Below are positions 18,017-59,556 of a stretch of 64,000 nucleotides of DNA, one piece after another (the first letter of the stretch is position 1; each line of letters begins with the position of its first letter). The DNA is from Branchiostoma lanceolatum (taxonomy: Eukaryota > Chordata > Leptocardii > Amphioxiformes > Branchiostomatidae). The notes under the pieces are model-generated. The model ran no database searches, had not been told where the DNA came from, and saw nothing but the letters and a program-made list of their open reading frames with translations. Both the position numbers and the translations under genes were made by a program. The stretch is taken from NCBI RefSeq assembly GCF_035083965.1, contig NC_089723.1, forward strand, positions 19,247,489-19,311,488, written 5' to 3'.

Positions 18017-18059
<43 letters not shown>

Positions 18060-27000: not shown

Positions 27001-30000
27001 CAATGAACGCTGCCGCTGGGATGTCCGCCGGAAAGGCGGGTGAGTGTGGACAGTTTTACTCGTTAATCGGCAGCGATACCGAGAATGGATACTATTAGTG
27101 GAGAATATAATTCGTTCTGTTCTTTCACCGCAACCTGTTCCTCAAAGTTCCCTATATGTTGATCGGCAGTACGTACAAGGCAAGTCAAAGACGACTTCAG
27201 GTGTACATGTACCAGTGAGCGAATGTCCAGACATCTTATTTGATAGTGTATCTTGTTCCAGGAATGTCGTTGATGAAGGTTCAACGTCTGCGCCAGCACA
27301 GTTCGCTCCTGGTGGAGAAGATGAATTCGCAGACAACTATTCAACACCTGGTGAAGAACAAGGTACTGATGGAAATACATCCGATTCGCTGTTTTAGCAA
27401 AAATGTCGTTGCCTAGATTCCCTTCTCAACATAGCTGAAGTAATTTTGTGGGGTTCGAACGACATATAGTACATACGTTTTGCTTGTGACATACAGTATT
27501 TCCTAAATTGCTTTTTGCCGCTACAATAGCCTAATAGGCAGATACATTCCACCTAAAAAAAAGGTTGTGTATTCAAGTTTAAAGGTTAACTTTAAAAAAA
27601 ACACAGCTATAAATGTACAAAGTTTAAATCATAGCTATAGGACCAATGCTGCTTACACGTTTATTGTGTCAGTGCCGTTGCATGGAATCATTGAACATGT
27701 TATCAACCACATGATACAGCAAAGTCAAACCATGTCTTTTCTGCCACACTAAGGCCCGATTTATGCTAGGGTCACATTTCCTAACCGGGGCCCGGCCGGG
27801 CTGTTTGCGGAAACGAAAAATCAAAGTGTATGTCAAAAAATTTGCACAAGCTATGCTCTTAGATAATTTTGCGTACGTTTTGTGTTTTGGTTGTCTTTTT
27901 ATATCATAATTTCCGTTCCTAAAGACTGCCCGGCCGGGCCCCGGATTGAAAATGTGACCCTAGCATAACACACGCGTCCACTTGGAGTCGACTCAGGACT
28001 GTGCAAGGAGAACCATAGGCCACTGAAGTAGCCCAAAGCTCCTGACACACAGCCCCGAATCGACTCCGAACACTTCTGTGTAAATCGGGTCTAAAACATC
28101 ACAAAACACGACACATTTCCAGGTGTTCACCAGCGACATGGCGCAGTACTGCATGAGTGGGAGCTCCGGCCAGGAGAGGAACAGGAGGGTCATGGAGCTG
28201 ATGCAGGCTGGCGATCGCAGTGATCGGGACTTCGACGTCTTCTGCGACGGCCTCAGGACGGACGGGCGGACGGCCTATCTCGGCGACCTCCTTCAGGGTG
28301 AGGGTACCAAAAGTGAGAGAGATGTTTTCATAGTCGTTCACGTGTGCACTTTGTAGATAGCAGTGGTAGTCCGATCAGTAATGGCAATGCTGGGGGTAGT
28401 GCCATTTGTCTGGACTGCGTGGGCATGTACGGCATACAGTGCGCACTTGTACTCAAATAGTAGTGATAGTCTGAATATCTGAGACAGTTTATAACTATAG
28501 CTAAACTCATACGATCGCACATTTTCCCCATTACCAAGCAGTGGCGAGAAGAAGCCGATCTTACACGTTGTTTATGTTTATATGTGTATGTTTTGTTTTT
28601 GGCTGTAACCTATACTGAGCACGGTTGGGCAAAAATGTTCAATAAAGGTTTCTCTATTCTTGTATCATGTTCCAAGAGCAGAAACTATCGCATTTATAAT
28701 CCATTATGTCCTTTATGCTATTAGAGGCTAGCAACAGAGCACGCAAGCTGCAGAATTTCTAGATGCTCGATTCGTATATTTGTGTCATGATCAGTTGCAC
28801 GTCACGGATGTGAATCGGGATACATGCAAAACGTAATCAAACTACATGGCACTCTGCTGATGTCAGTCAGGCAGTTCGATATATTTGGCGGGTTCGCCAC
28901 ACATCTTAGTCTTTTCATTTATCTGGTAATGTATTGGGCACCTGAAGCTACCTGTGTACAGAAAAACGCGTCTGGTTGCTTTTGATAACATATCGGAAGT
29001 GAAAATGATGTTGACTGCCGTGTTGCAGGGCAAGGAGTGGATCTGAACCAGCAGGTGCTGAGGGAGGAGGAGGGAATGAACAGGGCAGGAGCCGGACTGG
29101 GAATGGCGGGAGCGGGGGCAGGACTGGGAATGGCGGGAGCGGGACTCGGGATGGCGGGAGCAGGATCAGGACTCGGAATGGCGGGAACGTCTGTTCAGAG
29201 CCTGCAGAGGTCCGGCATGAACCTCAACGCCAGCCCATCGTGGCAGCAGATGAGTCTATCAAGTGCGTGCATTTACTGTGATGAAAACATCGTACATATT
29301 GATGAATGAGAGGATGGGTGGATGAATGAATAAGATGTTTATTGCTAAAAACAAGTACATGGCAGCCAACGGGCCGGATTGCGTGCCCATTATACAAGCA
29401 GTACTTAAAACAAGCTATTTACCACTTACATATAAGTTACAAATTATTGATACATACTTCACAATGGAGCACAATGCACATGTACTTCTATCCCTTTCTG
29501 CCTGTCTCCCAATGATCTCGTATGTATACCCAGGTGATCAGTGGCCCTCAAAAAAAGGGGAAAGGTAATCCCATAGCCATTTTGATGGCACTGAGTTGTT
29601 ATCCACTGTAACCAGGGCACTTATCATAACCTAATATCTTAAGTTGGATAGTAAAAGTGAGATTTAAAAAAGATGCAAGTTATGAGCATTTTGTGTGGAT
29701 GTTTCAATCTTCGTGTGTGTTGTTTTTTTTTTCAGTTCCCAGTGTGCATATGGACGAGGTGAAGGTGGTGGGCAATGTGGGTCAGCAGGGGGCGCTCATG
29801 TCCGCCTCTTCCGCCACGGTGCCAAACAACCACCCGGTCATCTTGGAAGTACGAGGAGAAGGTATGGATGTATTTTCAGCTTCTTCTGCAACAAGTTATA
29901 ATGTCACGGTCTCCACACATGTACAGGAAGCATGTCCACCTGTCTATCTACTAGTATATGTAAAGTGGTTGCAAAATCGTTCTTGTTACGCGTTTATACT

Positions 30001-33089: not shown

Positions 33090-36000
33090 ATGGATTCAAT
33101 TTCACCAACAGGAACTCCAGGAACTACTGGAGAGTTTGGCGCCATTGTACTTGCCTGGGTCATACCATTTCTCTTCTTCTTCGTGCTGTGGATAGTCCTG
33201 GTAAGCCTCCTATGGACATAGTCTTAATCTACTGTCTTAAAATGTATCAACCGTTACGAGAGCATTTATAATTATGACATAATTATCGACAGCAGTAGGC
33301 CATGTTGATTTATAGTATTGTTAGTGAGTTAGTCGACCAATACAGCACTGACGTTTGGAGGAACTAATGTTAGGTATACTACAGTCATTCTGAAGCTGTT
33401 GATACAATGAGTAACTTTTAGTAAAATATTAATCTAGTAAGGATAATCTATGATCGGTGAAGTAAATGAAGATTACATGCAGAATTTGAAAACTTCACAG
33501 TTTTATGACTGATACAAAATGTCGTTGCCCTCCCCCTCCCCAGATGGTTTGCTGCTGTTTCTGTGTGGAACGATGCAAGCCTGTGCGAGACAAGATAGGA
33601 CTGGAGAGAAAGTATCGTGAGTTAATGAAGAAGAAGAAGACCGACAACACGGCGATAAGCTTTGCTGCCTCTGATGCTAGGATGTCTACACGCTCTAGAT
33701 GTATGTACTTGTTTGAAATCGAAGTAAATGTACATGTGACGAATATGGCAGGGACGAACAGACAATAATGATAAGTTTACCGCAAAACATGTCCTAATTA
33801 CAACTAACAAAAGCACAGTAAATGAAACCATTGACAATGTGGGGCATGTGGTTAATCCAGTTACAAATTGTCTGATTAGTCTACAAATTAGACAATTGTT
33901 GTCTAGATCTAAATTTGTTATGTTTCAATTTTTGGAAGCAGTGGAGTCCTGAAAAACAGACTTTTCTCATGATACATGTACGTGGGTTCTATGATTTCTG
34001 GATGAGTGTAAAGGATTATTCTTGCTTGTATTTATGTCTACCGTAATTCCAGTTTACTTCCGGTTGTGATAGATTCGATATGTAATGATGGCTTTTATCC
34101 ATCTATTTCATTTTATGAGAACACGTGTTGTTGTCGTACTCTTATCAAATTCTGTAGTATTCTCGGCGATGAGCCATGATCGTCAGGCCATGTTAAAGAC
34201 ATACAGGAATACCATCATCGACAACATGAAGTCTCCTACCACAGTCGCATCGTACCTGGCTCAGGAGGGCGTCATCCCTCCTTCCATGCTTAACACCATA
34301 ATAAGGTGACCCTTTCTTATTTCCATATCACCAATTCCACACTTTTCCACCATATGCATAAGATGACAATCAATCATTCGCAGGCATCAGTGTCTGATGC
34401 ATGGCGGCTGCAGACATGCATAGGGCTCGCCATAAGATGACGCCTTCGGCATATTGATATATTGATTTGAAATATCTACAACGACGCATTTCACTCTGTT
34501 TGCTTGTTTAAACATTTGTTTATTCATGAGAAGCTTAAATCGGCCTGCAGGTCGCTTTTCATTGAGGTAATGAGGGAAGATGATATAAGGGTCAGGCAAA
34601 ATACATAACAAAGGTATAGCTTGTGAGTATATCATAGTGTTTACTTAAAGCTGAGAACAACAACGAGGGATAAAGAAAGATACCTGACAGTCTGACACTA
34701 CTTTCTATCTTTCTCGTCGACAAAGACGTAGCTTTAAGCTAACGGAAAAAGATAAAGGTAACTTGTATTCTCTGTGATAACGCCATCATCAATTGCTGCT
34801 CCTTTAACAGTCAGCCTACACCAGAGGAGAAGTCTAAGAAGTTGTTGGACGCCCTGCCCTCGTACCAGGATGAATCGTACGGCTGCCTCTGCGCGAGTCT
34901 CAGGGACCAGGAACAGCTCCACTGGCTAGCGGACACACTGGAAGGGGAGGGTACGTTGGACATTACACTTTACACCAGTGCCATCCCAGCGATGACTAAG
35001 TTACTGAATGAACTGTAAAAAGTGATGGACATTGATGACATTATATGAATATGTAAATAACATGTGTGTGTGTATTATCGTTGTAAAAAGAGCCAGAAAT
35101 ATTTCACATGTACACGTACTACCGCGAGGCACGCATACGCTCTGTCTGAATGTCGCACTGTTGGACCCTTGTTGTCGTCTTACATTCCGGTTTTTAAATG
35201 TACTGCTTTATCTAACGTTTGATGATTTTAGATATGTCACCAGATTTTACCTAGTCGGTTAATGGTGATACTTTTTTTAAATCTAACTCCAATTCGGTCA
35301 TGAATTTGACTGCCACTGTCAGTTTGTGTAAGTTTTCTTAATAAACCATTCATCATCATCATCATTCATCATCACTTTAGATCTTCTGTAAACGTACCCA
35401 ATCGGCCTAGGCTACACAATTATTATACAAATGTGAAAGCTTTGATATGATACTTACTCCAGCGAAAAGAGATCTTACATAGAAGAAGAATCTTCTTTCC
35501 ACTCAAGCAATACTTAGTTGATTTTCTTATATTGTCCCAGCTTTAACTCTTTATATTTCATTTCCTGATAGGATTGTCAGTGGACAAGAAGAAGCGGATA
35601 GCCAGCCATAGAAACCTGCTGGTTAACAAGATGAATCCTGACGACATCGTCGACCATTTTTCGAACAACAAAGTAAGTACTACGTAGCTGTAAGGAAAGT
35701 GTCTGATAGACATCGAATCGTAAGCAGGTGAGACATTACTGGCTGTGTAAAAGGAAAACTCCAATATCCCAGGTTTACTGTAATTCTTTTCTGCAGGTTT
35801 TCACCAGACACATGGCGAACTGCTGCCTTGGTGCGAAGTCACGTGAGGAAAAGAACAAACGGATTCTGCACCTCCTGGCCTCCCGGAGTGACCGGGACTT
35901 CGGTCTCTTCTGCACCGCTCTCAGGGCAGATGACCAGTCAGCCTACCTTGCTGACCTCCTGGAGGGTAAGACTCCTAGGTTTTAAGTGCTAATGACGTAT

Positions 36001-37858
36001 TTCATTATCAATCTTGCTACATGTGTAACAAGTGCCATGAGTGTTCAATGACGTGCGATATGTGTTCACGCCAGGACAACTTCAACAAGAAAGCGAAGAT
36101 CTCATATAGTCTCTACCAGACTGACTGCGCTGGCTAATGGAGAGAATAATTTGACAAGGGAGTTTGGCTACCAAAGCCAAAGGGGTTGACCGGAGTGGAG
36201 AATGGGTTTTTGTTTTTACAATATATGACACAACCATGTTAATTTCACACATTACATGTACCACTCTCAGGCACATGCCATCCCTCTGACTTCTGGCCAT
36301 GTGCCAACGTTCACTTCCTACCAGCCTGCCGAAGAAATTTGGCCCGGTCAACCTTTGCATCCTGCCAGTCTCCGGCTACAACTCGGCCCGAGAATCAACT
36401 TGGGCCCGGGACAGCCAGAACAAATCTGAACACACACCAAGACAAACAAATGATGGTAGCCTGTGATAACGACAATGGTTTGACACTTTTGTGTCTTTTG
36501 TGTGTATGTGTTTTTCAACTGCCGTCTTTTGTCTAAACTCCAGGCGAGGGTGTTGACCTGAACACGAGGATCATGGATGAGGAAGCTGCCATAGTGAAGA
36601 GTGACGTGCAGATGCATAACAACGTGCAGATGCATAACAACGTGCAGATGCATAGTACCATGCAGATGCAGAGTGACGTGCAGATGCATAGTCCCATGAA
36701 GACCAACAGTACCAGTGGTTCCGATGGAGAAAGGATGGACTCGAGCATAGAGCTGAGTAAGGAATAGCTTAGTTTGAACTCGTTTATTTCTCACCTACAG
36801 ATTCACTATTGCTGTGATTTTGAGTTACAGTCGACAATATAAAACGTTGCACAACTTGTGGATGAGGCATTTTCGTGATCAATTATTTGTATTTTCTTAT
36901 CAAATAGACTATTTTTGACGTCTTTAGATGCAAAGAAATCGAAGATGTGTATGTCAGCTTATGTGTACTTTGTCTTTGTATATGTGTTAGCATCATTCAG
37001 AATAAGCGACGTAGAAATGCCGAACTTTCGTGAGCAGCCATCTTTGCCATGAATGAAACATTGCATTTGTATCGGCAGATCATCAAATCTATTTGATGTA
37101 ACCTACGTTACAAATGCATCGGGCATAATGATATGCATCTCCATCATTCTAGGTCCTAACTTGAAAATGGACGAGGCACCGAAGATGGGGTCTGTGGGAC
37201 AGGCAGGGGGACTTATGTCCGCAGTGTCGTCTGCAGTGGTGCCAATCAACATGCCTGTCATCTTGGAAGTGAGCGGAGAAGGTAGGTATAAATCTCAACG
37301 GAATCCTTCATGTCTATTAATCACACTAGTATCAAACAATATGTATTCTGATGCGTGTTTTGGTTGTTGTTTTGTTCATCTGGCGGTACACGATTCCACT
37401 TTATTGTGATGCAAGTTGGCAGATGGTGAAAAGAAAAGCATAGTTAGCATTGGGCTCACCAAGTATTGAATAGAGATAAGGAGAAACTGTATGCCGTAAA
37501 GGAAATCGAATCGCTCAGTACCTCGAAGTGCACATATAATTATCATATCAATAAATAGATAAATAAGTACAAATAAGCAGTTGAAGCACTGAAGGCGATA
37601 GACGGTCATCAACGTGCAACAGTCACAATGCATTACAAATGTTTCATATTTGTGTCCATAGTTGACGGCGCACACTGGATGTATAACGGAGAGAGCCTCA
37701 GTCGACGCCCGGGGTTCCGTGAGACGTCAGACGGCTTCCTACACGAGCTGCACATCGACCGCATGACCTCTGACCTGGACGGCGCCTACACCTGTCAGGG
37801 ACGTGCACCTGACGGAGGGACCGTTTCTTGCGAGATCAAAGTCTCAACAGTACAGTAG
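33090..37858 (+). CDS. IgCARD-B: membrane-anchored CARD-CARD-Ig protein without ectodomain
   Basis: Nine exons join in frame to about 454 aa: 33090-33200, 33544-33700, 34158-34305, 34811-34950, 35572-35672, 35797-35965, 36544-36756, 37153-37281 and 37662-37858. The start ATG gives MDSISPTGTPGTTGEFG, then the helix AIVLAWVIPFLFFFVLWIVL, then CCCFCVERC with basic residues, so an N-out, C-in orientation is expected. CARD1 spans about 90-185, CARD2 186-275, a His/Met repeat linker 276-346, and the C-terminal Ig 347-454. All phases equal those of IgCARD-C from the membrane exon onward. It could be a constitutive membrane adaptor, or a regulator competing with the receptors through CARD-CARD contacts (inference). 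An undetected upstream exon cannot be fully excluded, since a TTTAG acceptor-like site lies just upstream. Confidence 0.82.
34158..35965 (+). other. IgCARD-B tandem CARD exons
   Basis: CARD1 (34158-34305 and 34811-34950, internal phase 2 intron) shows HDRQAMLKTYRNTIIDNM, YLAQEGVIPP, TPEEKSKKLLDALPS and LHWLADTLEG. CARD2 (35572-35672 and 35797-35965, internal phase 0 intron) shows RIASHRNLLVNKM, REEKNKRILHLLASRSD, DFGLFCTALR and AYLADLLEG. Both fit the six-helix CARD pattern, with the EEK..xLLDxLP helix 3/4 region and LADxLEG end. The different internal intron positions argue that the two CARDs are not a very recent duplication of each other. Confidence 0.88.
36544..37858 (+). other. IgCARD-B repeat linker and C-terminal Ig domain
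   Basis: The linker exon 36544-36756 has repeats of the hexapeptide NNVQMH (18-bp DNA unit GTGCAGATGCATAACAAC). Exons 37153-37281 and 37662-37858 encode the Ig domain: GGLMSAVSSAVVP, PVILEVSGEG, AHWMYNGESL, SDGFLHELHIDRM, LDGAYTCQG and DGGTVSCEIKV. The domain is strongly conserved with the other paralogues. Confidence 0.83.
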
Positions 37859-42088: not shown

Positions 42089-42097
42089 GTCACCAAC

Positions 42098-45000
42098 ATG
42101 TGGGTATCAGTGATTCTGGCAATAACGTGTATAGGACTGGGCACGACAGGAGGTACGTCGAACTAGTGTTTATTTCCTTCCACTTGCATGATTTTCTCTT
42201 TGTGGTTATTGATTTAAATTGGTTACATTTTTGGTATATATAAAAGATGTTTAACAAAGTGATCTTTTATCCCTATCCCTATCCAACACTACTGGTTCCG
42301 CATGATTTGTCCCCATCCCTTATGATGAAATTGTCTACAAACCGCTCCTCCAACTGGTGAGTTGTGATGACGGAGTGTGTGGTTGTGGTGGTTGCTGGAG
42401 CTTTGCTGGTGCTGTTTAACACAGAAGCGTAACTCAGTGTGCACGCTGACGCATAATCTCCGGACGCTTCGCTCACTAACAGCAAACTAAATAAGCCTAA
42501 TAAACCAATAATGTTTTTTCACTGTTCAACCCTTAGGTTGTAGATTAACTGACACATTACTTAACATCTAGACTTTTGAACTGCACACTAAAAAAGTCAA
42601 TAAATGTTTGGCATCTTACAATGTGAGCAATACTCTCCCTTCTACAACAGAGAAAAAAATTAAATCATGTTGTTTATCGTTTTCTAAATCTCTTTGCTTC
42701 GTCTGGTTTCGTTTGACTGCTAAATGGACCAAAATACCATCCAAAAGGCCACCAAGCCTTCGTTTCAATGAGCCCCTGTGTGTGTCTTTCTAAAGTTATG
42801 CATAACTGTAGGTTATGAGCGGAAACGAGTGAAATTTCAGTTGGGTACAGACAGTGCAGTTTTGAACTTCACTCCTGTGAGCCATTTGTGGCAAGTAAAC
42901 AGTGATGTCCGAAAGAATTATATATGTTCGATATATTCAGTGTATTTTTGAAAAGAAAAAAAAATAGAGAACTAGAGGGAAATGTTGCGTGGTGGGTAGT
43001 AGATGCTGGCTGGTTTTACCGCTGTTTTAGTTGTGAGTAGTTGCTCGTAGATGCTGGTAGATCTCGCAGCTATAGCGTTAACGTTACAGATATGCTGCAA
43101 AGTGTATGGGGTTGTGCTGTGAGAATCTAAAGGTTGCACTAGTAGCACTGTAGTAGTGTCAGTGAATGCATTTCATAAGACTGCACTTTTTGAATCATAG
43201 AATATGGCATCATTGCGATAGAGATTTTAACATAGTGAACATGATGAGTGCTGCAAGCAAACAGCTTAAGCGACTTGTTCAATAATATAAACAAAGTACT
43301 ATACTACGTATACAATACACCCAGCTGATATTCAGGATAGCGTGTGACTAGATGTGTTACTCATTGTGATCGTACAAATGACTAATAACTAAACAAAGAA
43401 CGGATTCGCTGTCTGACTCTGGTGAGTCATTGGTAAACGTGGGCGATTGTTTTGAACATTTCATTCCACTCGCCGACTAGAATAATTCCAACAGGGTACA
43501 CAATTCCGCCACCCTGAAAAGTTCGAACAGATCTCCAACCCAACGTCCCACAGTATGATACTCTCCAGGAGTCCTGTATATCTAAACCGTACACACGTGT
43601 GTGTCTGTTTTATGCTGCATTAGTGATCTCTCGAACCCACTGTTTTTCAAAGTGGCGAATTTAAGTAACCCGGCGGATTGATGTTAATGGAGGTTACCCC
43701 TGGTAAACAGGCCTTGGGCAGTGGCAAGGACATTATGTATAATGTCCTTGGCAGTGGTGAGGTTATCATCCCGGCTTCTCAAGGCCATATACCTTTCTTT
43801 GCATCAGGCTGAATCATATGCTTCCCAGGCTCTGCAAACATAATAAGCAAGTATTTTCCTAGACATTTACGGTAAACTTACTGATGACGTGAGTTATTAA
43901 CGACAACTTTGTGTTCTGACCACATAATACCACCACTAATATGACCTTAAAATGATTGTTCCCTAAGACCAATGTTGTCACTTGGTGTAAACGTGAGTGT
44001 CCGTTGAAAGTTTTTTGGCAAAGCCAGTGGTAACGCTAATTATCGCCTTGAGGTCAGGATGACTCATAATTGACGACACGAGAAAAACAAGAGTCAGTCT
44101 GTTGTGAAACCATCATTACAAGCTTAGTCAGTGGTTCCTACAGTCATGCAAATGATTGCAGCCTAAAGGTTAACCTTCATTGACCTCTAAAGAATTTTTC
44201 CCATTAATTACTGAATATGTTGTTTTACATATTCTATTAAATGTGTGCGTATCCTTAGACAGTTGGTGTTACCTACGCCCTTCCCTGAGTTCATTTCTGA
44301 GGTTCCAAACCTGTACTAATTGCAATCATTGAGCTAAAAACGTCGCTTTCATTTCCTTTCTTGAATCTACCAGACACCTGGGCCTCTTCCCCTTTTGTCG
44401 GACGTCTATCCTCTCAGACGCTTTAAATGGCCCCTATTAAGGACACGACGCTTGTCTGAGCGTTGAAGCAGAAAATTAGAATTTTGGGAGAGGATGCCCA
44501 TTATACAAAAACCTGTTTCTCAGCCCACGAGCACCAGACAACAAAGCACAAGGATTGGGCGTAGTTTTCAGAGCTGTGAAGTTGTAAATAACGAGACCAC
44601 TACTGTTTTTCATTGACACGATGACGGCTCTTAACCTCCAAGCAGATGTTGCAAGGCAAAAACCGGGGTTGTTTGTCACTGGGTGTCCGGTCTTTACCTT
44701 GAAAAACGATGAGACGTGGCTATTGACAGGATTACCTTGTCAATAACAGGCAATTTGAAACTATTGACAGGATAATCCTGTCAGTCTAGGGAAAGGTCTG
44801 TTATTGACAGGATCATCCTGACAATACTGCATTCATTTTGTTATTAACAGAATATTTCTGTCAATAGCGCAAATGCCCCCTTATTGACATGATTGTTTCT
44901 GTCAATACTTAGGTCAGGGTTAGGGTTAGATTTGTACTATTGACAGGATGGTCTTGGCAATAGTGATTATATTTGCACTATTGACAGGATGACGCTACCA

Positions 45001-48000
45001 ATGACAGAAGCGTTCGCACTATTGACATGATCATCCTATCAACAGTGGGAAATCCTTTTATCATCATCCTGTCAATAGTACAGATATTCCCACTTTTGAC
45101 AGGATGATCCTGTCAATATCCCCAGGCAATATGATGGGCCCTGAAGCAAACTTAGAGTAAGAACATGCCGTGACTACAAGAAATGACTGATTTAACGTAT
45201 CATGCATACCCACAATAGGAAAATAAAGAAGAGTGTATATTTCAATCAATTTGTAGCGCCATTCGACCCAGCTCAAGTGATCTCGCCGACGCTCAAAGTT
45301 GAGCCAACAGACGTGCTGTTTGACCCAGGTAGTTCCACAACCAGCGTGTCGTTTCAATGTAGCGCTACAGGGGACCCCGCACCAGAATACGTGTGGTATA
45401 AGGAATATGTTGACCTCGACACGGTAAGTAGAACACAGATTTTTGTCATCATCGACATTTACTCTACATTATGTCTTCGCCATGTTATCTCAAAATGTGT
45501 TTTATTGCATTTTGCACATTTTACTGTTACATTTGTACCTGCATGCGATTTGTATTTTGTAGATGTAAACACATATCTAAGTGCACAACATGAGCATTTC
45601 GACATCACCAGCCTGAACTTCAACAGTCTGTCAAGTAGAATAGGAGTTTAAGAATGACAAGATACGTCGATATCATTTGCAGATCACACGGCAGCCTCTT
45701 TACCAGACATCAGGAGGAACCCTGACCATCCCTGCGCCCAAGGCTGCGGACCAAGGAAGGTACTGGTGTCAGGCCTTCAACGAGTACGGCAGGGTGGTCA
45801 GCGTCGGGGCCAACTTGACATTTGCTTGTGAGTCTATTGTTATTGTTTTACTTATGCTTAGGTCCTAATTGGAAAAAAGGGGCCCCGCCGGGTAGTTGAC
45901 AGGCTGTTCTTTTGCACTTTTGAGTGTGACCCCTACGTGGCCCCGTGGCACACCCTGTGGCTGCCGGGCTATTTTTGGACCCGGCCGGGACCCCGAATCA
46001 TTTTAGCCCGGACTTATAATCAACGTGGAAGCCGGTAACAAATAGACACCGTGATCTAATATTGCGAACACCGGGACGTAGCCCCTCCTTTAGCTGACAG
46101 GCTAAATCGTGAACAAGTACCCGGGAACAACGAGCACATCGCAGACTGTCTGAGGCTTTTCTAGTCTGATGTAGTTTTCCCTGTCTTGCAGATGTTAACG
46201 ACTTCGATCCAGCTCAACGAACAGGCGCTACAACTACTTCTGGAAACGGTACACTTTTGCCGTGTTCGCCTCCAGGCGCATATCCCGGTAAGTGACAGAC
46301 TGTAGATGATCATACAAACGATGCACCGTACATACGTTCAGAGTCATTAAAGGAAAGGCTGCAGATCATGTCAATAAATGATCGAGAAGTTCTGTATGTC
46401 AACGGAACAAGCAGCTTGTCTGGGAAACTTACCTGCTACTTGAATGAGAATGAATAATGACACGTGTTGTTAGGTCGTATTTGTTTGCAAGTTGTTCTTT
46501 GTTTGTTCGCTCGTTATGGGAATACAATGGGATATTTCAACGTTGCTTTCAAGCTCTGGTATACCACTGGATTGAGGCCGGGAAGACTGCTTTCATTCCG
46601 AACGATGTGCGGAAGTACGCGTCACAGAACAATGGTGATTACTACTTCGCCAATGTCAGCCCCGATGACAACGGACTGTATCAATGTGGAGTGAAGATCA
46701 ACCTAAACACTGATGATGCAACGGCGCCAGTGACAGGAGGTTTCAGCGAATTCAGCCCAGAAACACCGCTTACAGTGACCGCTGCCAGCCCCGGTAGGTA
46801 TCATGGTAACACATGGAACATAACGGAGTGACCAGAAGATTAATTCGAGCCGGGGAGGGGGCAAACCGAAAATGCGCAATCTGAATTGATCATATAAGAC
46901 GTCTTATTTATATTTCACTTGGATGAATTACGGTGCAGATGAAGTCGGTGACATAGATGATTTCTTTATCTGTCCATACTTGCACTGATGAATGCTTGGT
47001 TCTCCAGTTCCCACGTCGCCTCCACAACTTGTTCTGTTCGAGACCATCCAGTACAAGAAAAGAGGCGACAATGTTCTGATGGAGTTCTTCGCATATGGAA
47101 AGTGAGTAAAATGATTCCTCTTGTTTATGTTAATCACCAACTTGTCATGACTATACTATGGCAGAAGATCGTTGATTACTACCAGACGAAAAGCTACAAC
47201 GGTAGGGTCTACATTGATAGAACTCCTATACTTGTTCTATCCAACATTTTACATTTCGTTGGCACCAATCCTCCTCTTATAACTTGTCCCCAGTCCTACT
47301 TGCTTCATTTAATTTAATTTGATTTAATCTTATTCAGCGTAAAGACGTACACATCTTATTTGGTTGTAGCACGATATGTAGCTGAGGCTGCCCAACTAGC
47401 TAGTAATTGTCACGAATGGCTAACAAGAAATCAAATATAAGATACTACTCAATCTCTGCCAAAACTAAGTACTGACTATCTAACCACTTGTTCCAGTCCT
47501 ACTCCGACTCTTGACTGGCGCCGCGTCGATGCAGTAGGCGGCAACGCCATGGAGTTCCCAGCGAGTGTAAAGTACGAACAGTGGAAGCGGGCCATGACGC
47601 TGACCAACGTAGCTGTCGCCGACCAGGGATTCTACGAGGTCACGGCCACCAACACACTGGGAACTGACGTCAAGACAGCACAGCTCGTCATAGAAGGTAT
47701 GTACAGGACAATGAAGTGACCATTAAAGGGTCAAGACGTGTGTCTATGTCTTCGGCTCTTTGCGTCTCGGAAGACGGTCGACAGCTTTGGCCAGTCTTTC
47801 GGCTTCGTTGTGTTTATAGTGCCTATGAAAACATCGGTGTCACAGTGAGTTATGAATGATTGTTTCTATAGTAACTATGTTTATATAGTATCTGTCTCTC
47901 GCTATTGTTTTGATACGAAATACTAGTATTACAATATGTATCCGTACAAAAGACATTGCAAACGAACCACGTAGCAGAATACCAATGATTTATTTTGAGC

Positions 48001-51000
48001 CTATCATCAACGTTTGTTTATCATATTCAGATCAGATGTTTCAACTTATAGGTGTAAGGATGATCATATCAATCCAATATTATTCAATAGAGCGTGCTAA
48101 ACGACCAATAGCTAGTTCTGACTTCAAGGACAAAGTCTACAGCAAAATATGTCAGCGCAATCTTAGTCAAACGGATAGGTTCCCTTTCAAATGTGTAGGG
48201 CGCTTTGTCTATTTGAAGTTTTCCTTTTACGACAGACGTTCCACAATATATCAAGAAGTTGGAAACACAGAATCTGGACCAAGCGCCTGGAGAAGACGTC
48301 AACCTGGAAGTGACCTGGAAAGACGACGGCAGGAACACAGTCACTCCTTCATGGTACTACAACGGAGTGGTATGTCTTTTCATCATAACTGTGTGTTGAA
48401 TACATTACGAACGACAGTACGCATTAGTTGTGGTAGAATAATAAATGTAATCAGTTTCGTTTGAAGATTACATATGACACTAAATCTACTTTGAATTGAT
48501 TGAGTTAAAACGCAAACGTCAACTCGACTATATAGGTCCATTGTGACATTAGCATATGCATGGGCATCCCCGTGGTTAACTTCATCATGTCCGCTACGTC
48601 TACGACCTACTAGGTAGAGACTATCGGAGTGAACCTAAACTAAACAGGATGTCACTCAGGCTGCTGAGACATGGTCATGTGAGCCAAACAGAGAAAGAGA
48701 AATTTAGATGGCACATTGTGTGAATTTGATTTCGACCAATCATATCCTTTACAGGACATAGTGCCTGACGACAAATATATCGTCACCAACTCTCCCGCGG
48801 CGTCGTCGCTGACTGTTAAAAACGCCCAGCCTGCCGATGCCGGCTCGTACCAAAGTATCTTGCAGAACCAATACGGCATGGTACCGTCCTTCTCCGAAGT
48901 CAGAGTTGGAGGTATGTGTCAATAATACACAGCAGACTATAATGATTTCGATAGGGAGCTCGTATTCGAGGGAAGCCCGGTCGAATTCTCTGTAATTTTG
49001 TTTGCAGTGTTGACCCCTTCGGCACATGTTCCACTTTTTTTCTAAAATAATTAGTCGGACTTCTAACCTCTTATGAATATACAGCAAACATTACATGATG
49101 AGTACTGTATGTATATATTTTTCAACATCAACATGTGACAACAGACCTTCCACAGTTTTACATGCCCGAGCTAATGTGCATTGCATGTATGTATTGTTAA
49201 CTTGCGTACCTGTAATATCGGAGAATTCAAAGATGAAACGAGGAATGTCTTGATGAGAAAAATGTTTTATGTTGTCTTCCACAGCACCAAGCAAAGTGAC
49301 GGACCTTAAACTTGTTGAGAAAGGGGACAACTCGGCAACGATCGCTTGGTCAGAGCCGCCGACGAAAGCGAACCTTGACGGCTACCAGATACAGTACAAC
49401 CCGACAGACAGCCCTGACAGCAAACAGTACATGGATGTGGGGAAACTTCCAACCCAGGCAACCATTCCCAACTCAAACCCGGATATATCCACATACAGGG
49501 TAAGACGAAATCTTTACCTTTTCGCCTATAGCATTTCCCACATCAATGAAGTCAAACTATGATCAACAATACAACGTTACTAGTAAAAGGTAGTAATGCC
49601 ATTTCACCATATACCACTGACGCTGATGACATCAATGACGGACTTTGTACAATGCTGTGTAACCATGGAGACGGGCTTGCAATGTTAACTGTTATGAATA
49701 TATAGGTTTGAGTGGCAGGATATACAGCAATGATATAGTACATCGAGGTACATATACTAGTATAGAATGCACTGGAAATTGCCTCAAAGTCCCCAGTGAG
49801 ACAAAAAAACATTATGGTTTAGTGAGTGCTGCAATGTAGACGTCAATATTTGTTATTTCAATGCACTAAACTGCAACATATTCTGCACTACGACTAGGTT
49901 CGAGCCAAGACCGTTGACGGCATATATGGCCCATACAGCGACCCACTTGTCAACGGCGTAGTAACACCAATAGGTGACGGACGTACAGCCACCGACACTC
50001 CCCGTGTCGCAGGCGGCGGTGGAGTTCCACTGCTCGCCTGGTTACTGCCTCTTCTGCTGCTGCTGCTCCCTCTGCTGCTGCTGGTACGGTTCCTTAGTTG
50101 TAGTGTCATTGAGCTAAGAGGCAGGCACATAATACTAGTATCCAAACAGATCTACCGGTGCCACCGGTAAATCTGCTTGGAGATTAGGGGGTGCACAAAC
50201 GTTACATAATTCCTGGCTAACTGAGATAAAATTACTGTGACTTACAGCACAATTGCGATCGAAGATTTTGCTTTCAAATTGACACCATCATTTCTGGGTT
50301 TCAAAATGTAAAATGTTAAAGGCTGAAAGACACATGCAGATTTAAAGACGTTTCACTGACAGTCACGTGTTACGAATCGTAAAATGGAGCTATATATGTG
50401 TTATCAATGAAACAAAGATGAGGTGACCAAGTTGTGCAGCAGTAAGAGCATTATCTATACTTTATATCTGTAAGGTAAAAGCGGTTTTTCAGTTTTGTTA
50501 TCATTGCAAATGACCAGCATGTTCGAAGTGTGTTGGAACTTTCTTTCTCGTGTTTTTCAGCTGCTCTTCTGCTGCTGTTGCAAAGGATGGTGTGCCGGGA
50601 AGAAAAAAGAAAAGGCCATAGGAAAAGGAACAGCGCTTGCAAGTGAGTGTGCGTTGTACACATGCAACCTGTTTCTATACACGTTCACTTTCGAACATAC
50701 AAGCACTTCTGGGGTCCAATAACCAAAGACATTTGCATTGAGGACAGCTAACATCCGTGTGTATGCGTTCTCACCTAACTCTCACATACTATACACAATC
50801 TATCATATATCCCTAGTGCTTGCAGTAATCAAGAAAAATGACAACTTTGATTTGTACACAAATCTACGTCACAGATTTGACACCAATGAGCCGGGTTCAT
50901 CAGGAGATGCTGCGGACCTACCGGACCACCATTGTGGACAACATGAAGGCCCCTGGCAAGGTCACGACGCGCATGGCAAATGAAAAGGTCATCAATGCCA

Positions 51001-54000
51001 ACATGGTGCAGGCTATAGCAAGGTAATTCCTGACTGATATTATATGTACTACAAATGAACTCATCTGGAAGAATGAAAAAATGTCAACTTCAGCAACATG
51101 CAAAATATGAAAACCAGAGCAAAAGATTTTTTATCAAAGATGTGAGCAACTAGTTGAATCTAGCATTGAATAGGCTGCAAGCAGAAAGGGACTCTGGATG
51201 ACATTGATGTACACACAGGATGCGTCTTGGGATGAGGAATAAAGTTCCAATTCCATGGTTTATTGCAACATAAGAAATTGAAAGTTAATTGCAAGTTCTT
51301 GCCCGTAGGCTAATTGCCAGTACATGTAACATGTTCTGCACTACGACTAGGTTCGGGCCAAGACCGTGGACGGCATATATGGCGTGTTCTGGCCTGAGCA
51401 CGTAGGCAGTAACATGAAAAGGACGGACAATGAACAACATTTTGTCTGATTTTATACCTTTACAATAGGGAAGGTCTGACATACAACTGTTAAGAGGGAT
51501 ATATGACCACACATGTAAGACACTAGTTTGCTATTGATCCTTGGCCACCTGATTCTTCATCATATAACTTAAAGGGAAACAGCAAACTTTATGGGTAGCT
51601 TTTATAGATGAACGTCATATTCAAACCTATATGAAAGGTAGATTTTGATAATGGGACACACCCTATACACATCTAGCACACATGTGTAACATAATGTGGT
51701 GAAAGAATTGTTTGATTGAATGTTGTTTCATCCATGTCAGCCACCCCGTACGCCAGGACAAGAGTAAGAAGCTCCTGGACAGCATGGTGCTGGGTGGGGA
51801 TAAATCATTCGACAGCTTCTGTGGAGGTCTAAGGAAGGACGAGAAGTTGGACTGGCTGGCAGACACATTGGAGGGCCAAGGTTCGTGAATTGTTTTGCCA
51901 CACAATTGTTGCAAATCTATCTGACTACCTTGCAGTTTTAAGCGATCTAGTACATACGAACATACAAGGAAATCGCTGATGTAAATCCTTCAGTTGTATG
52001 AGAAAACAACCTACCTAGCCTCCTAAAGATACATAAGGCAATTTTACTGGCTGCAACATAACTGTAGAGTGAGGGCATTTGCAGACCCATAGTATGACGA
52101 TGAATGTGAAAATGGTCTTCACATGCGTTGTGGTCCAGCCGGTAACGTACATCTCCTAGTTATCACATTAATGGTCAACGTAACACAATCATGAATAAAT
52201 GGTGCCGATGAAAACAGTCAGTCACTTCGTCTACATTGCAAGGGTGGGTTCTTGATTTAAAGGTAACTGACATTTTAGTCATTAATATTGTCTGCAACAA
52301 CTGCCAATTTTGTCAACAGGGTTGTCCATGGACAATCGTAAAAGACTGGAGGCACACAAGCAGCTGCTGGTGAACAAAATGGACCCGGAGTCAACTCTGA
52401 CCTCCCTAACACAAAACCAGGTAATGATCAATCCTTCGGTTGGGACTGGTAGCATTCCTCATACGATCGCTGTACAATTGTATTCTTGTGGTAGCCGTGT
52501 ATGTATATGTCGTTTCAAAATTCAGCTGTCTTGTTAAGGAAAACGCCGTCTTAGTTTCTTGGGTCGGTAGTTGGTTAGTGTATCAAAATCCTATGACATC
52601 AAAATCATATGACATCTTACAATGCATTAAGTGAGAAACAGTTATCAACACGGACAGAAGTGAAACCTGAATCGGACTGTGCCATGTCCCTCACATGTAC
52701 GGTATGTCTTTAAGATGTAGTGACAAGGAATAGAGCAGAGGAGGAACATGACATGATATGGGAATGGCATCATTACTCTATCACATACCAAAGTTTTACT
52801 ATTAATCCTCAAGAACCCTACGACTTTTCTCACACGGAATAACAGTTCTGAGTATTTTGCTACTATGTAGTATAAACAGTATCTTGTAACATTCAATAAT
52901 CCAAAATCAACAGTTCTCTACTTGTTCCTAGTGTGTGCATTGCTCTGCCGAATTTTTCTCTAACGTGACTGTTTCGTGTATTTTAGATCTACAGTAACGA
53001 CATGGCGGAGTACTGCATGTCGGCAGACTCTACCGAGGAGCAGAACAACCGCATCCTCCACCTGATGCAGTCTCGCAGCGATGAAGACTTCAGCATCTTC
53101 TGTTCCGGACTGAGGGCCAATGGACAGCAGGCCCATATTGCTGACCTTCTGCAAGGTATGGATGTGCATAGTATAGTTACCAAATGTCTATAATCTGGGG
53201 CAAAATTGAAGAATTGTGGTTGAAGAAAAACCAATTCTTTGTCTATGCAAGAGTTAGATGCATCCAAAAATCTGTTTATATTACCCAAGTTCAACTTCCA
53301 TTTTTGACATTTTAGTGCAGTCGAACTTGGATTCAGCAACCACTCAAGGGACTGGTGAAAAACAGTTGCCGAGAACAGGTGATTTCTCAGGACTGGGTGG
53401 GTTAACTATGTAAAAATGGATGGGAATGTTTTAATGTGGCTTGTAACTGGAGGCGGTTGCCTGTAATCTCCAAGCAGATCTATCGGCGGCAAAGACAGTA
53501 TCCAAAGGGCAAAAGCAGTTTCTTTGGCCACCGACTCAGTGGCCAATAAAACTGTTCTTGCCCTTTGGATACTGTCTTTGCCGCCGATAGATCTGCTTGG
53601 AGATTAGGTTGCCTGGGCCAGGTGGTTGCCGGACCAAGTTTGACTGTAGTAATCAATCGACCATTTCCAAGACAAGTACTATTCCTTGCTTGGTTGGGCA
53701 TGAATAATAAGGTAACTGTCGGTTCTATACACTGTACACAAAGCTGACTCAGATGGAGCTTATTGGTGCATTTCAGGAGAAGGGATTGACATGACCAAAA
53801 AAGAGGTGATTATGGAAGATGAATTTGTGAAGAAGGAGGGCATGAGCCTCAACCAATCCGGTGTCGGGTTTGGACTGGGTGCAGCTGGGGTTGGACTGGG
53901 CACCGCCGCCGCCGCTGCTGGTGGTCTGGCTGCCGCCAAAGGAGGCCTGGGTACCGGTGGGGCTCAACTGACCAACAAAGGAGGCCTGGGTACCGGCGGG

Positions 54001-57000
54001 GCTCAACTGACCACCAATGGAGGTCTGGGTACCGGAGGGGCTCAACTTACCACCCAGAGTACCTCCGCATCAGGGTTGAAATCCGCTGGAACGTTTGGAA
54101 CCGACCTGGGGCTCGGCAGTGCTGCCGGACAGGGACTCGACATGGACGGTTCCTTCAAGGGGCGACATGGAGGTTCGTCGAGATGTCAAACACTGTATGG
54201 TTAATCTGCACATCAGAAAAGCCTACCGTAACGTTTTTATTGGTATACATGCAATTCAGCCTACTGGCTGCGAAATGTTTTTACAATGCTTCTGTGCATA
54301 AATATACCATTTCATTCATTCATTCATATCTAGTACGTGTTGTGTGTGCAACTAAATAATGGAATAACTTTATACTACGGTTTAGAGTCAATTCCATGTC
54401 ACCGAGAGGGTTTTCAGATGATATTGCTAATAAGTCTGAACAATTTTAGAGAAAAGACTATTTCAGTCAAAACAAGAGTCTTAGGACCCAAAATCTCCAT
54501 GAAACTTTGTTTTTTTATTAAACCAGTTCCCCCCATTCTATATCGCTCAATGGTATGACCCACACTGGCCGGGCAAGGGTAGAAGTGGCTATAAATAGCT
54601 ACTGACCTAGATAAGAGACCAACAGATGGTGCGACCTCAAAGCCCACAATAGAGTAGATATTCCTCATTACTTATGCAAATTCAGTATGAATTTGCATAA
54701 TTAGCACTTCAGTTTGTACATCTCTGTCCAACCTACCTGCATATCAAATAACATGAAAATCTGTCGCTCCTTTCTTCAGTTATTCTCCTTGCAAAATATT
54801 TACAAACACGCCATTGCAGTTCCAGTGACACATACCAGGGGGCCCAAAATCGACCTTGACCTTTCTCCTCCCAGCACCTACCCACATACCAAATATCATT
54901 TCAATCCATCCACACGTTCTTCAGTTATGCTGATTTTAAGCGTCTGGTGACACATACATACACACACGGTGACACAAACATACACACACGCGCACACACA
55001 CGCAAACACACTAACTTCGCATGATTTGCACTTCAGTGTGTACATCTCTGTCCAACCTACCTGCGTACCAAATAACATGAAAATCTGTTGTTCCTCTCTT
55101 CAGTTATACCCCTTTAGAACATTTTTACAAATAGGCCATTGCAGTTCCAGGGACACAAACCAGGGGGCCCAAAATCGACCTTGACCATTCTCCTCCCAGC
55201 GCATACCCACATACCAAATATCATTACAATCCATCTACACGTTCTACAGTTATGCTGACTTTAAGCATCCGACGACACCCATGCAAACGATTTACCTCCT
55301 TACTTATGCAAATTCGGTCTCATTTGCATAGTTTGCACTTAAGTGTGTACAACTTGGTCTAACCTACCTGTGTACCAAAGAACATGACGATCTGTCAATC
55401 CACTCTTCAGTTCTTCTACATTGAAGATTTTAACAAATACGCCATTGCAGTTCCAGCCACACATGCCAGGGGGCCCAAAATCGACCTTGACCTTCCTCCT
55501 CCTAACACCACCCACATACCAAAAATCATTACAATCCATGTACAGGTTCTACAGTTATGGTGACTTTAAGCGTCCGGTGACACATACATACACACAAACA
55601 CCAAACGCAAGCAAAACAGTATCTCCATGAAAAAGCCTTTTTTCATGGAGATAATAATTCCAGACCATTCAAACAATTAAAAATGAAAGTTTGAACATGT
55701 TTGAACTCATCTATATATTTTGGAAATATTATGAAAGTATTTGCACAAATATCTCTTTATTTAGAACAGTTTTCAAACATCTGTGTGATTGTTCTACTGT
55801 TGGAACATGTTCCAACATTTTGCATCATTCTCAAAATGGTAGATGTGGGTTATTGCCCCCATAAAAGTAGGTGCTAATTAGGCTCTATTGTCTGCCTCTG
55901 TATATTTTTAGATTTCACGTCTGGACACTGGCAACTCTTTTGTCTTTAGGTGTCTATGCATGGCACCTAGGCCTAATCCCCTATACTTTGAAGGGATGTG
56001 TGAATTGCCCTGTTCCCAGCCCACTGACCCAGTTATATCATATTTGTAGAATGTTGGAACATGTTCAAACAAATAATCAATCTATGTTGCAACAATTTAG
56101 AAACTAATACAAATAATGTGTTCAATGTTGGAAATTTGTTTTACCTGTTGGAACACAGCAGAAAATATTTAGAACACCAAATAAATGTTGGAAATTGTTC
56201 TTAACAGTTACTTATCTCACATAGATTGTTACAAAGGTTTTGTAAATGTTAGAACAAAAGGCAACAAACACCCTCTCGGTAATGTGGAATTGACTCTACT
56301 TCACTCGGCAAAGACAGAATGTATCGCTTTGTATCATCATCCGCTAATGACTATGTATGCCTATTAAGTTATACTGATATAGGTGTTGTGCCTTCTCAAC
56401 TGCAATATTGTCTGGGCATTTTGCACTAACAAAACAAAATCTTGTTAACATATCACTCCCTCCGATTACTTATATCATGACCTGATCAAAAGGAAGTATT
56501 TTTTAGTATTTGACATCTTTAACACTGTCGTTACTGTCTGCAGTTTTCTTAGAACTATTGACAACTTGCAGATTGCCTAGTGAATGTCTAAACATGAACT
56601 GTGTTTATTCTAGCCGTTGTCAGGGGCGGAGGCCATAGGTACCTCATTGACGCCACCGCCCCTCAGGGCAGCCTGATGTCCGCCTCCTCCACCGTGGTGC
56701 CCCCTGGACAACCCGTCATCCTGGAGGTCAGGGGAGAAGGTACGTCCTGTTGGCAGCAGATGGACTACTGCAGTCTATTTGATAGGGGGAAAATCTTAGA
56801 AAATTCTGATCAATATCTATCTTCGTTGCATATTGTCAGCTGTAGCTACCAAAGTGCAAATTTGCAATGTCCACTTGGAGTAAAACCAGTCATGTGACTG
56901 TCATATCTATGTATTTATCGATCTTTAGGGTGGTCCCTTCATGATCAGGTAACTGAGTACTAGTAACTGATTTCCAAGGGAGTCCTTACAAAATCATATC

Positions 57001-57313
57001 AAATCAGGATGCAAAACAAAGATAACATTAACTGAATGAATAATGCATGCATAATAATATAACAAAAGCAAAAACCATCAACAACTGCAGTGGTGTTATT
57101 GATTAACTTTCTGCAGTTGACCAAGTTGAGTGGCTCTACAATGGGGGCAGCATCAGAGGAGATCCTGGCATCTCCACACATTCGGACGGCTTCCTACACG
57201 AGCTGCACATCGACCGCATGTCTCCTGAGCGGGACGGCACCTACACCTGCAGGGGGGAGACACCTGACGGAGGGGCCGTGGCCTGTGACATCAAGGTTCA
57301 GACCTTAATTTGA
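42098..57313 (+). CDS. IgCARD-C: Ig4-FN3-TM-CARD-CARD-Ig receptor (fullest architecture)
   Basis: Nineteen exons join in frame to about 1015 aa: 42098-42152, 45257-45423, 45683-45827, 46192-46287, 46554-46793, 47008-47101, 47497-47696, 48236-48369, 48755-48911, 49285-49499, 49898-50083, 50561-50642, 50875-51022, 51741-51880, 52320-52420, 52987-53155, 53777-54172, 56614-56739 and 57117-57313. Order: signal peptide (1-18), Ig1 (19-122), Ig2 (123-234), Ig3 (235-332), Ig4 (333-429), FN3 and helix (430-563), Cys/Lys juxtamembrane (564-590), CARD1 (591-686), CARD2 (687-776), Gly-rich repeat linker (777-908), C-terminal Ig (909-1015). Exon lengths equal those of IgCARD-A at 145, 96, 200 and 157 nt, proving a duplication. 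Role inferred: surface recognition or adhesion coupled directly to CARD signalling. Two donors are GTTCGT (51881 and 54173), weaker than the rest. Confidence 0.87.
43485..43700. repeat. Dispersed repeat copy in IgCARD-C intron 1
   Basis: Shares AGATCTCCAACCCAACG, CTCCTGTATATCTAAAC and CACTGTTTTTCAAAGTGGCG with 60470-60720, in the same order and spacing. A partial third copy (CTGTTTTTCAAAGTGACGGATTTATGTAA, TTAATGGAGGT) lies at 16127-16185. Confidence 0.75.
43724..43753. repeat. Short hairpin CAAGGACATTAT-GT-ATAATGTCCTTG
   Basis: A near-perfect inverted repeat with 12-bp arms and 2-bp loop. A decayed relative lies near 10600-10630. Confidence 0.7.
44720..45119. repeat. Array of TATTGACAGGAT/ATCCTGTCAATA hairpins
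   Basis: Nine or so imperfect 24-bp palindromes of the form TATTGACAGGAT-N-ATCCTGTCAATA follow one another at variable spacing. Two TTAGGG-like units (GGGTTAGGGTTAG) lie in the middle. The array ends 137 bp before the Ig1 exon of IgCARD-C. Confidence 0.85.
49285..50642 (+). other. IgCARD-C FN3, membrane helix and Cys juxtamembrane exons
   Basis: FN3 is split over 49285-49499 (KVTDLKLVEKGDNSATIAWSE, DGYQIQYNP) and 49898-50083 (VRAKTVDGIYGPYSDP). The second exon ends in [16 protein letters not shown] and further Leu residues. Exon 50561-50642 gives LLFCCCCKGWCAGKKKEKA. The basic cluster after the helix fits a cytoplasmic tail. Confidence 0.83.
50130..50187. mobile_element. Short foldback element, TCTCCAAGCAG family
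   Basis: The inverted ends TATCCAAACAGATCTACCGGT and ACCGGTAAATCTGCTTGGAGATTA resemble the element at 53464-53606 but with almost no interior. Confidence 0.6.
50875..53155 (+). other. IgCARD-C tandem CARD exons
   Basis: CARD1 is 50875-51022 plus 51741-51880 (HQEMLRTYRTTIVDNM, RQDKSKKLLDSM, SFDSFCGGLR, DWLADTLEG). CARD2 is 52320-52420 plus 52987-53155 (RLEAHKQLLVNKMDPES, EEQNNRILHLMQSRSD, DFSIFCSGLR, HIADLLQG). Exon lengths 148, 140, 101 and 169 nt and all phases are identical to IgCARD-B. Confidence 0.88.
51332..51386 (+). pseudogene. Partial duplicate of the FN3/TM exon start
   Basis: About 55 bases here match 49882-49936 with few mismatches (TTCTGCACTACGACTAGGTTCG...GACGGCATATATGGC). The match includes the splice acceptor and the codons for VRAKTVDGIYG. 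It is cut off before the membrane helix, so it is a duplicated exon fragment within the CARD1 intron. Confidence 0.85.
53455..53615. mobile_element. Foldback mini-transposon with perfect 9-bp target duplication
   Basis: Element 53464-53606 has long inverted ends (TAATCTCCAAGCAGATCTAT... and the reverse complement, about 48 bp with few mismatches). It is flanked by perfect direct repeats GGTTGCCTG (53455-53463 and 53607-53615). Confidence 0.9.
53777..54172 (+). other. IgCARD-C Gly-rich repeat linker exon
   Basis: Encodes EGIDMTKKEV, then GVGFGLGAAG, then three copies of a 13-residue unit GGLGTGGAQLTxx, then a Ser/Gly tail ending KGRHG. It is positionally equivalent to the linker exons of IgCARD-A and -B, sharing the entry motif G-x-D-(L/M), but its repeats are unrelated to theirs. 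The GTTCGT donor at 54173 is weak but keeps phase 1 and joins to 56614. Confidence 0.72.
54660..55610. repeat. Three copies of a tandem repeat of about 310-325 bp
   Basis: Recurring blocks GTGTACATCTCTGTCCAACC, GCCATTGCAGTTCCAG, GGGGCCCAAAATCGACCTTG and CCAAATATCATT...CAGTTATGCTGA start near 54710, 55036 and 55340. The family is related to 22036-22975. It lies in the last long intron of IgCARD-C. Confidence 0.8.
56614..57313 (+). other. IgCARD-C C-terminal Ig domain
   Basis: Exons 56614-56739 and 57117-57313 encode [58 protein letters not shown] and DGGAVACDIKV, then a TGA stop. It matches the C-terminal Ig of A and B, with the same Cys in F and G strands. A likely poly(A) signal AATAAA follows at 57539-57544. 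Confidence 0.83.
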
Positions 57314-57538: not shown

Positions 57539-57544
57539 AATAAA
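57539..57544 (+). promoter_or_regulatory. Candidate poly(A) signal of IgCARD-C
   Basis: AATAAA 226 bases after the stop codon, in the context GATATGAAATAAAATC. Confidence 0.5.
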
Positions 57545-59343: not shown

Positions 59344-59398
59344 TCACAGTAATATCTCCAAGAATATTTGCTGGGAAATGGGGATCAGATTACTTGCC

Positions 59399-59545: not shown

Positions 59546-59556
59546 ACTTGCCTGCC

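Follow-up and report, generated by a model that had tools for sequence, protein, structure and literature searches.

Introduction

As a rule, sensors in the cytosol set off CARD assembly. NLR and RLR proteins combine a CARD with a NACHT or helicase domain, and NOD1, RAIDD and CED-3 are cytosolic proteins with NACHT-LRR, death or caspase domains; to our knowledge none of these three has an Ig domain, an FN3 domain or a membrane helix. TNFR death receptors have a Cys-rich ectodomain and a death domain tail. Among adhesion proteins, contactins consist of six Ig and four FN3 domains held by a glycosylphosphatidylinositol (GPI) anchor, and L1 and neurofascin carry an ankyrin-binding tail after the transmembrane segment. 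In amphioxus, PMC2575513 describes 'shortcut' proteins in which a receptor part and a death-pathway part are combined, as TNFR-caspase (with cDNA support), LRR-caspase and TIR-NACHT, and PMC3196919 describes caspases with new death-fold prodomains. Here we analyse a stretch of 64,000 nucleotides from the amphioxus Branchiostoma lanceolatum (NC_089723.1, positions 19,247,489 to 19,311,488), referred to below as the window. Its gene C (42098-57313, plus strand) encodes, in this order, a signal peptide, four contactin-like Ig domains, an FN3 domain, one membrane helix, CARD1, CARD2, a Gly/Ala-rich linker and a C-terminal Ig domain (Ig5). Two paralogous genes, A and B, lie upstream of it on the same strand.

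Results

Gene C joins an adhesion-type ectodomain to two CARDs in one reading frame

A sequence-only reading of the locus had put forward a gene of 19 exons with matched phases and an open frame of about 1015 amino acids (aa). Re-deriving the exons from the sequence, with those coordinates known to us, gave exactly this model: 19 exons forming a single frame of 1015 aa, GT/AG boundaries at 18 of 18 introns and a TGA terminator at 57313. The signal peptide, four Ig domains, FN3, membrane helix, two CARDs and final Ig that had been proposed are borne out by Pfam and hydropathy together. In profile searches the I-set, fn3 and CARD matches of gene C, both CARDs included, all exceed the curated Pfam cut-offs (CARD PF00619 23.9 bits, fn3 25 bits, I-set 23.7 bits). 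The modules and the exons that encode them are the following.

42098..42152, plus strand: exon 1, start codon and signal peptide (hydrophobic N-terminus, hydropathy KD19 1.72)
45257..45827, plus strand: Ig1, exons 2-3 (gene model, Pfam and PDB match)
46192..46793, plus strand: Ig2, exons 4-5 (gene model, Pfam and PDB match)
47008..47696, plus strand: Ig3, exons 6-7, without Cys (gene model, Pfam and Cys positions)
48236..48911, plus strand: Ig4, exons 8-9, without Cys (gene model, Pfam, PDB match and Cys positions)
49285..50083, plus strand: FN3 and most of the membrane helix, exons 10-11 (fn3 34.6 bits; KD19 3.04)
50561..50642, plus strand: exon 12, end of the helix, CCCC cluster and Lys-rich juxtamembrane segment (gene model and hydropathy)
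50875..51880, plus strand: CARD1, exons 13-14, isoelectric point (pI) 9.2 (PF00619, 40.5 bits)
52320..53155, plus strand: CARD2, exons 15-16, pI 4.9 (PF00619, 28.8 bits)
53777..54172, plus strand: linker, exon 17, GEGIDM start followed by Gly/Ala-rich 39-nt repeats
56614..57313, plus strand: Ig5, exons 18-19, muscle I-set type, with the TGA stop (gene model, Pfam and PDB match)
57539..57544, plus strand: AATAAA 3' of the stop

FN3, helix and juxtamembrane segment are counted as one module, exons 10-12. Intron phases run 1,0,1,1,1,2,1,0,1,0,0,1,2,1,0,1,1,1, and phase 1 is found at every junction between modules, those of the CARDs, linker and Ig5 included. Modules of the phase 1-1 kind are the usual hallmark of exon-shuffled surface proteins. 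In a leave-one-out codon test the modelled frame ranked top of three in 18 of the 19 exons, with small margins for exons 1, 4, 12 and 14.

Several gene C introns contain repeats. Short direct and inverted repeats cluster around the unit CTATTGACAGGAT in intron 1 (44718-45121). Intron 13, between the halves of CARD1, holds a 59-nt, 93% copy (51325-51383) of the exon 11 acceptor region (49872-49930), and in intron 16 there is an inverted repeat (53464-53606) with 71-nt arms, 93% complementary, and a 1-nt spacer, which looks like a mobile hairpin element.

Ectodomain, membrane helix and topology

The whole gene C protein matches I-set across five stretches (8.4e-45) and fn3 (2.2e-8). Compared with solved structures, Ig1-Ig4 match contactin-5 best, in a single alignment through all four Ig (E 1.6e-51), and the ten best distinct PDB sequences for the ectodomain are contactins or axonin-1. 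Neurofascin reaches 5.6e-31; of the two types named in the earlier description of these Ig domains as contactin/L1-like, the ectodomain is thus closer to contactin than to L1. Ig3 is free of Cys in genes A and C; Ig4 is free of Cys in C and has one Cys in A.

Besides the hydrophobic N-terminus, gene C has one strong hydrophobic helix, at about aa 550-568, and each of the three proteins has one such helix (KD19 2.78-3.04), immediately followed by a Cys cluster. In B and C basic residues lie beyond the helix and Cys cluster. Under the positive-inside rule the basic flank of a helix is the cytosolic side, which would place the CARDs of these two proteins inside; for the family as a whole we infer single-pass proteins with the CARD tail in the cytosol. 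The juxtamembrane Cys cluster may be palmitoylated and hold the receptors in membrane patches.

CARDs, linker and Ig5

Pfam finds CARD in two stretches of the whole gene C protein (2.1e-15), the double-CARD tract being aa 591-776; searched singly, CARD1 gives 2.7e-10 and CARD2 1.3e-6. Profiles built from two to three sequences match RAIDD best for CARD1 (1e-4) and NOD1/CARD4 best for CARD2 (4.3e-5), with CED-3 at 4.1e-4. Compared profile to profile, CARD1 and CARD2 are related with 98% probability at 23% identity. Their internal introns differ in position and in phase (2 in CARD1, 0 in CARD2), so the two CARDs are an old pair or separate acquisitions; a recent tandem copying of CARD1 into CARD2 is disfavoured by the same intron difference and by the low identity. 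The two CARDs of a pair carry opposite net charges, and the order of the charges is reversed between B (34158-35965; pI 4.9 then 8.9) and C (50875-53155; 9.2 then 4.9), the single CARD of A having a pI of 8.8. With two pairs only, this pattern is a hint.

The linker starts alike in the three genes (GEGIDM, GQGVDLN and GEGVDLN), and the repeats downstream differ from gene to gene. Ig5 of gene C scores 29.9 bits on its own; the best matches of the Ig5 profile are MyBP-C (1.2e-17) and titin, and it also resembles the Ig domains of MLCK. A B-strand Cys is missing from Ig5 in A, B and C, the strand being placed by eye, and together with the muscle I-set matches this fits a cytosolic I-set domain. 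Ig5 probably serves as a docking or dimerisation site.

Genes A and B repeat the domain order upstream of gene C

The codon scan pointed to further Ig and CARD exons upstream of gene C, and a tblastn search of the window with the 1015-aa protein found them, with matches outside the gene C locus down to 8.9e-23.

13020..30632, plus strand: gene A, 17 exons, 998 aa; signal peptide, four Ig, FN3, membrane helix, Cys/Ala-rich segment, one CARD, linker, Ig5
26097..26288, plus strand: gene A exon 11, end of FN3 and most of the membrane helix
27262..28297, plus strand: gene A single CARD, exons 13-14, counterpart of CARD2 (48% identity to C CARD2)
29736..30632, plus strand: gene A Ig5, exons 16-17 (57% identity to C)
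33090..37858, plus strand: gene B, 9 exons, 454 aa; short N-terminus, membrane helix, CARD, CARD, linker, Ig5
33090..33200, plus strand: gene B exon 1, ATG and membrane helix together
34158..35965, plus strand: gene B CARD1 (exons 3-4, pI 4.9; PF00619, 32.5 bits) and CARD2 (exons 5-6, pI 8.9; 36.2 bits)
37153..37858, plus strand: gene B Ig5, exons 8-9 (64% identity to A, 52% to C)

The signal-peptide exon of gene A is the sole candidate in a scan of 8600-16400, and its phase 1 fits. The fn3 match of gene A is above cut-off (28.9 bits), and the segment before its CARD contains nine consecutive Cys and Ala-rich repeats. No relic of CARD1 was found in gene A at 26289-28123 in a search made without shuffle control, where the best E-values (0.065 and 0.086) belong to the known CARD2 exon and the rest are at least 0.53. 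A 52-bp minisatellite of 27.7 copies (19662-21104) begins within the last part of exon 6 of gene A. The repeat unit consists of the exon end plus the splice donor (CCTATGGGAA|GTAAGT), with 11 exact copies, and because of this exon 6 is trailed by many possible donors.

In gene B, 17 residues including the start Met precede the helix, the Cys cluster and a Lys-rich segment; CARD1 and CARD2 come next, then a linker made up of NNVQMH-like repeats, and Ig5 is last. The start codon and the membrane helix of gene B are in the same exon, which puts helix and CARDs in one frame. Both of its CARDs pass the PF00619 cut-off. The model contains no ectodomain, and a relic search of four intergenic and flanking stretches (8501-13019, 30633-33089, 37859-42097 and 57314-64000) gave no signal above shuffled sequence: the single match with E no higher than 1 lies downstream of C and has an E-value of 0.44, and among 20 base-shuffled controls 6 gave values of 0.36 or lower. 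Between B and C, at 39171-39293, lies an unproven fragment resembling the start of a contactin-like Ig2 (best PDB match contactin-2, E 0.31), which has no Pfam match and was missed by the relic search.

The sequence-only reading had proposed an Ig4-FN3-TM-CARD-CARD-Ig architecture for the single gene C, and this proposal gains strength from two tandem paralogs that keep the domain order. Since two paralogous genes in the window repeat it, the architecture goes beyond chance.

Conservation across the three genes

Phases are identical at all shared junctions (A/C 16 of 16, B/C 8 of 8; 24/24 in total). Exon lengths are identical in 6 of 16 A/C pairs and 5 of 7 B/C pairs (11 of the 23 compared); this comparison leaves aside exon 12 of A and exons 1-2 of B, whose lengths differ from those in C. 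Selection was measured by counting on aligned codons, as the ratio of nonsynonymous to synonymous proportions (pN/pS). It is 0.38-0.64 in 9 of 9 module comparisons, with every 95% interval lying under 1 (upper limits of at most 0.91) and synonymous divergence (dS) near or beyond saturation in several modules; control alignments with shuffled codon pairing gave means of 0.98-1.10. The aligned exons of A, B and C are under purifying selection.

Protein identity between A and C is 43-50% for Ig1 to Ig4, 42% for FN3 plus helix and 22% for the signal peptide; CARD1 is 48% identical between B and C, CARD2 47-50% and the linker 25-36%. Ig5 has the highest amino-acid identity of any module in each gene pair (52-64%: A/B 64%, A/C 57%, B/C 52%), and despite this its pN in B/C (0.34) exceeds that of CARD2 (0.30). 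A blastn comparison of introns at E 1e-3 returned eight rows, seven of which join non-corresponding introns; the remaining match, 71 bp between the first introns of A and C, is perhaps a repeat. The intron between helix and first CARD has phase 1 throughout and is short, measuring 232 bp in C, 222 bp in A and 457 bp in B. With phases kept, about half of the compared exon lengths shared and the exons under purifying selection, a gene-fusion artefact is unlikely.

Neither AATAAA nor ATTAAA occurs in the intron before the first CARD of A, B or C. This absence counts for little against a gene end at that place: with 35 and 20 such words on the plus strand of the window, each intron would be expected to hold less than one. 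One of the two words follows each stop within 800 bp (ATTAAA only in gene A).

Outside the gene array, 2 of 10 flanking fragments scanned were above Pfam cut-off: a sodium:solute symporter (SSF-type) fragment upstream (4267-4440; PF00474, 7.5e-10) and a CENP-K coding fragment downstream (62463-62960; PF11802, 1.7e-34).

Discussion

Ig arrays bind ligands or one another, CARDs stack via charged faces, and clustering seeds assembly. On balance, we lean towards reading A, B and C as a tandem family of three single-pass, CARD-tailed membrane proteins in which contact would cluster the ectodomains and recruit a CARD effector. Of this, the gene models, domain identities, conserved phases and purifying selection are what the sequence itself shows. 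A and C would be type I receptors, with Ig1-Ig4 and FN3 outside and the CARD or CARDs, linker and Ig5 in the cytosol. A ligand or a cell-cell contact would cluster their ectodomains and raise the local concentration of CARDs at the membrane, where these would seed CARD-CARD stacking and recruit a CARD effector (caspase, RIPK2- or BCL10-like). Palmitoylation of the Cys cluster would keep the receptors in membrane patches, gene B would act as a sensor-less co-assembling partner or amplifier, and Ig5 would probably dock a partner or dimerise. Topology, clustering, effector recruitment and the roles of gene B and Ig5 are the inferred part of this scheme. The coupling of surface recognition to CARD assembly that the sequence-only reading had inferred would fit both the topology and the logic of the family. 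It is also conceivable, though we regard it as doubtful, that the genes form a dedicated surface-to-CARD module, with A and C nucleating CARD filaments at the plasma membrane, B serving as the membrane polymerising partner, and the opposite order of acidic and basic CARDs in B and C setting how the tails pair.

Several observations weigh against this picture. The A and B models were built with C as a guide, and phase agreement was partly helped by the choice of sites; the constraint and most Pfam matches are independent of that guidance. Exon 15, the first half of CARD2, is the sole gene C exon to fail the codon-frame test; its equivalent is 101 nt long in A, B and C alike. Donors are weak after gene C exons 14 and 17 (GTTCGT) and after gene A exons 2 and 10 (GTGCCC and GTGCTT, respectively). 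The CARD of gene A falls below the Pfam cut-off, with 21.1 bits for the domain searched singly and 15.1 bits within the full-length protein, which leaves 4 of 5 CARDs in genes A-C above it, and Ig5 of gene B is likewise under its cut-off, with 19.9 bits. A single-sequence search of the PDB with the tandem CARDs reached just E 0.022. Gene B may also have an upstream exon so far unseen.

The family reading has to be set against others, the most obvious being that two genes were wrongly joined, an Ig4-FN3-TM adhesion receptor and then a separate cytosolic CARD-CARD-Ig gene. There is an in-frame ATG near the start of gene C exon 13, and lancelet gene models carry prediction errors, one of which, according to PMC4967905, mixes an intracellular with an extracellular domain. 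However, one ATG of gene B covers the membrane helix, the juxtamembrane segment and the CARDs, and the helix-to-CARD introns are short and of the same phase in A, B and C; on these grounds we judge this reading unlikely and give it a very small chance. The sequence-only reading had itself raised the objection of separate genes, which for gene B is answered by the ATG in its membrane-helix exon. Harder still to credit is a second membrane helix formed by the Gly/Ala-rich linker, with Ig5 outside. The linker is somewhat hydrophobic (KD19 1.49 for gene C, 1.21 for gene A), yet this is far under the main helices and the Hessa sums are positive; the polar linker of gene B is absent from the five best windows of that protein, whose second-best window (1.65) falls inside Ig5, and the Ig5 of B is homologous to the others. 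The lack of a B-strand Cys in all three Ig5 domains, judged by eye, also speaks against an outside location.

Other explanations accept the fusion and dispute its output. CARDs and Ig5 could form a structural tail, a clustering scaffold or cytoskeletal anchor of an adhesion receptor, without death or inflammatory output. This would suit the contactin-like ectodomain, the likeness of Ig5 to MyBP-C, titin and MLCK together with its top identity in every gene pair, and a tail in which Pfam finds no enzymatic domain. On the other hand, the best CARD-profile matches are RAIDD, NOD1 and CED-3, which are signalling proteins, and gene B, lacking an ectodomain, still has both CARDs under constraint; we consider a purely structural role unlikely. 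The absence of a catalytic domain by Pfam and of a sensor in gene B would suit negative regulators that use CARDs tethered at the membrane to trap CARD effectors, with gene B as a constitutive sponge, and the opposite charges of paired CARDs would permit masking within a tail. Such a role leaves the long constrained ectodomain of two genes unexplained, and the charge pattern is based on just two proteins, so we hold it to be improbable.

What the sequence-only reading had said of the architecture stands. That reading had overlooked both paralogs, the juxtamembrane Cys cluster and the fact that Ig5 is of the muscle I-set type. If the family reading is true, a neural-adhesion-type ectodomain joined to CARDs would let surface contact start CARD machinery without adaptors. 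The trio of a one-CARD, a two-CARD and a sensor-less gene would provide a natural construct set for studying how receptor clustering seeds CARD polymers. The locus is also a worked case of how paralogs, without transcripts, tell a genuine fusion of domains from a mistake in gene prediction.

No Ig-FN3-CARD receptor is named in the accessible parts of PMC2575513, PMC3196919 and PMC4967905, nor in the titles and abstract beginnings of the literature searched, a limited negative with subscription papers mostly outside its scope. Fusion of receptor and death-pathway domains is, as far as those sources go, already known in amphioxus, and the Ig-FN3-CARD combination was not met in them. Among known proteins, contactins resemble gene C in that its four Ig align with contactin-5 in one stretch; they differ from genes A and C, in which four Ig and a single FN3 are followed by a membrane helix and a tail with CARDs. 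Unlike L1 and neurofascin, gene C continues after the helix with a juxtamembrane segment, CARDs, linker and Ig, and no ankyrin-binding tail family is among the ten Pfam families listed for it at E up to 1. NOD1, RAIDD and CED-3 share the CARD by profile and are its closest solved relatives by sequence. Neither a TNFR nor a Death family (at E up to 1), nor a NACHT or helicase family, was found by Pfam in A, B or C. The IL-1R family and UNC5 are similar in having an Ig ectodomain, one membrane helix and a cytosolic assembly domain; their tails are TIR or ZU5-death instead of CARDs, and they are not known to have a C-terminal cytosolic Ig. MAVS resembles gene B in its membrane-held CARD, but this CARD is N-terminal and the protein is mitochondrial with a C-terminal tail anchor, whereas gene B has the helix first. 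The nearest counterparts in design are the amphioxus shortcut receptors, which likewise hold a receptor part and a death-pathway part in one protein: by gene model, A and C place a recognition ectodomain and a death-pathway domain in one membrane polypeptide, and they differ from those receptors in combining an adhesion-type ectodomain with CARDs in place of a caspase domain.

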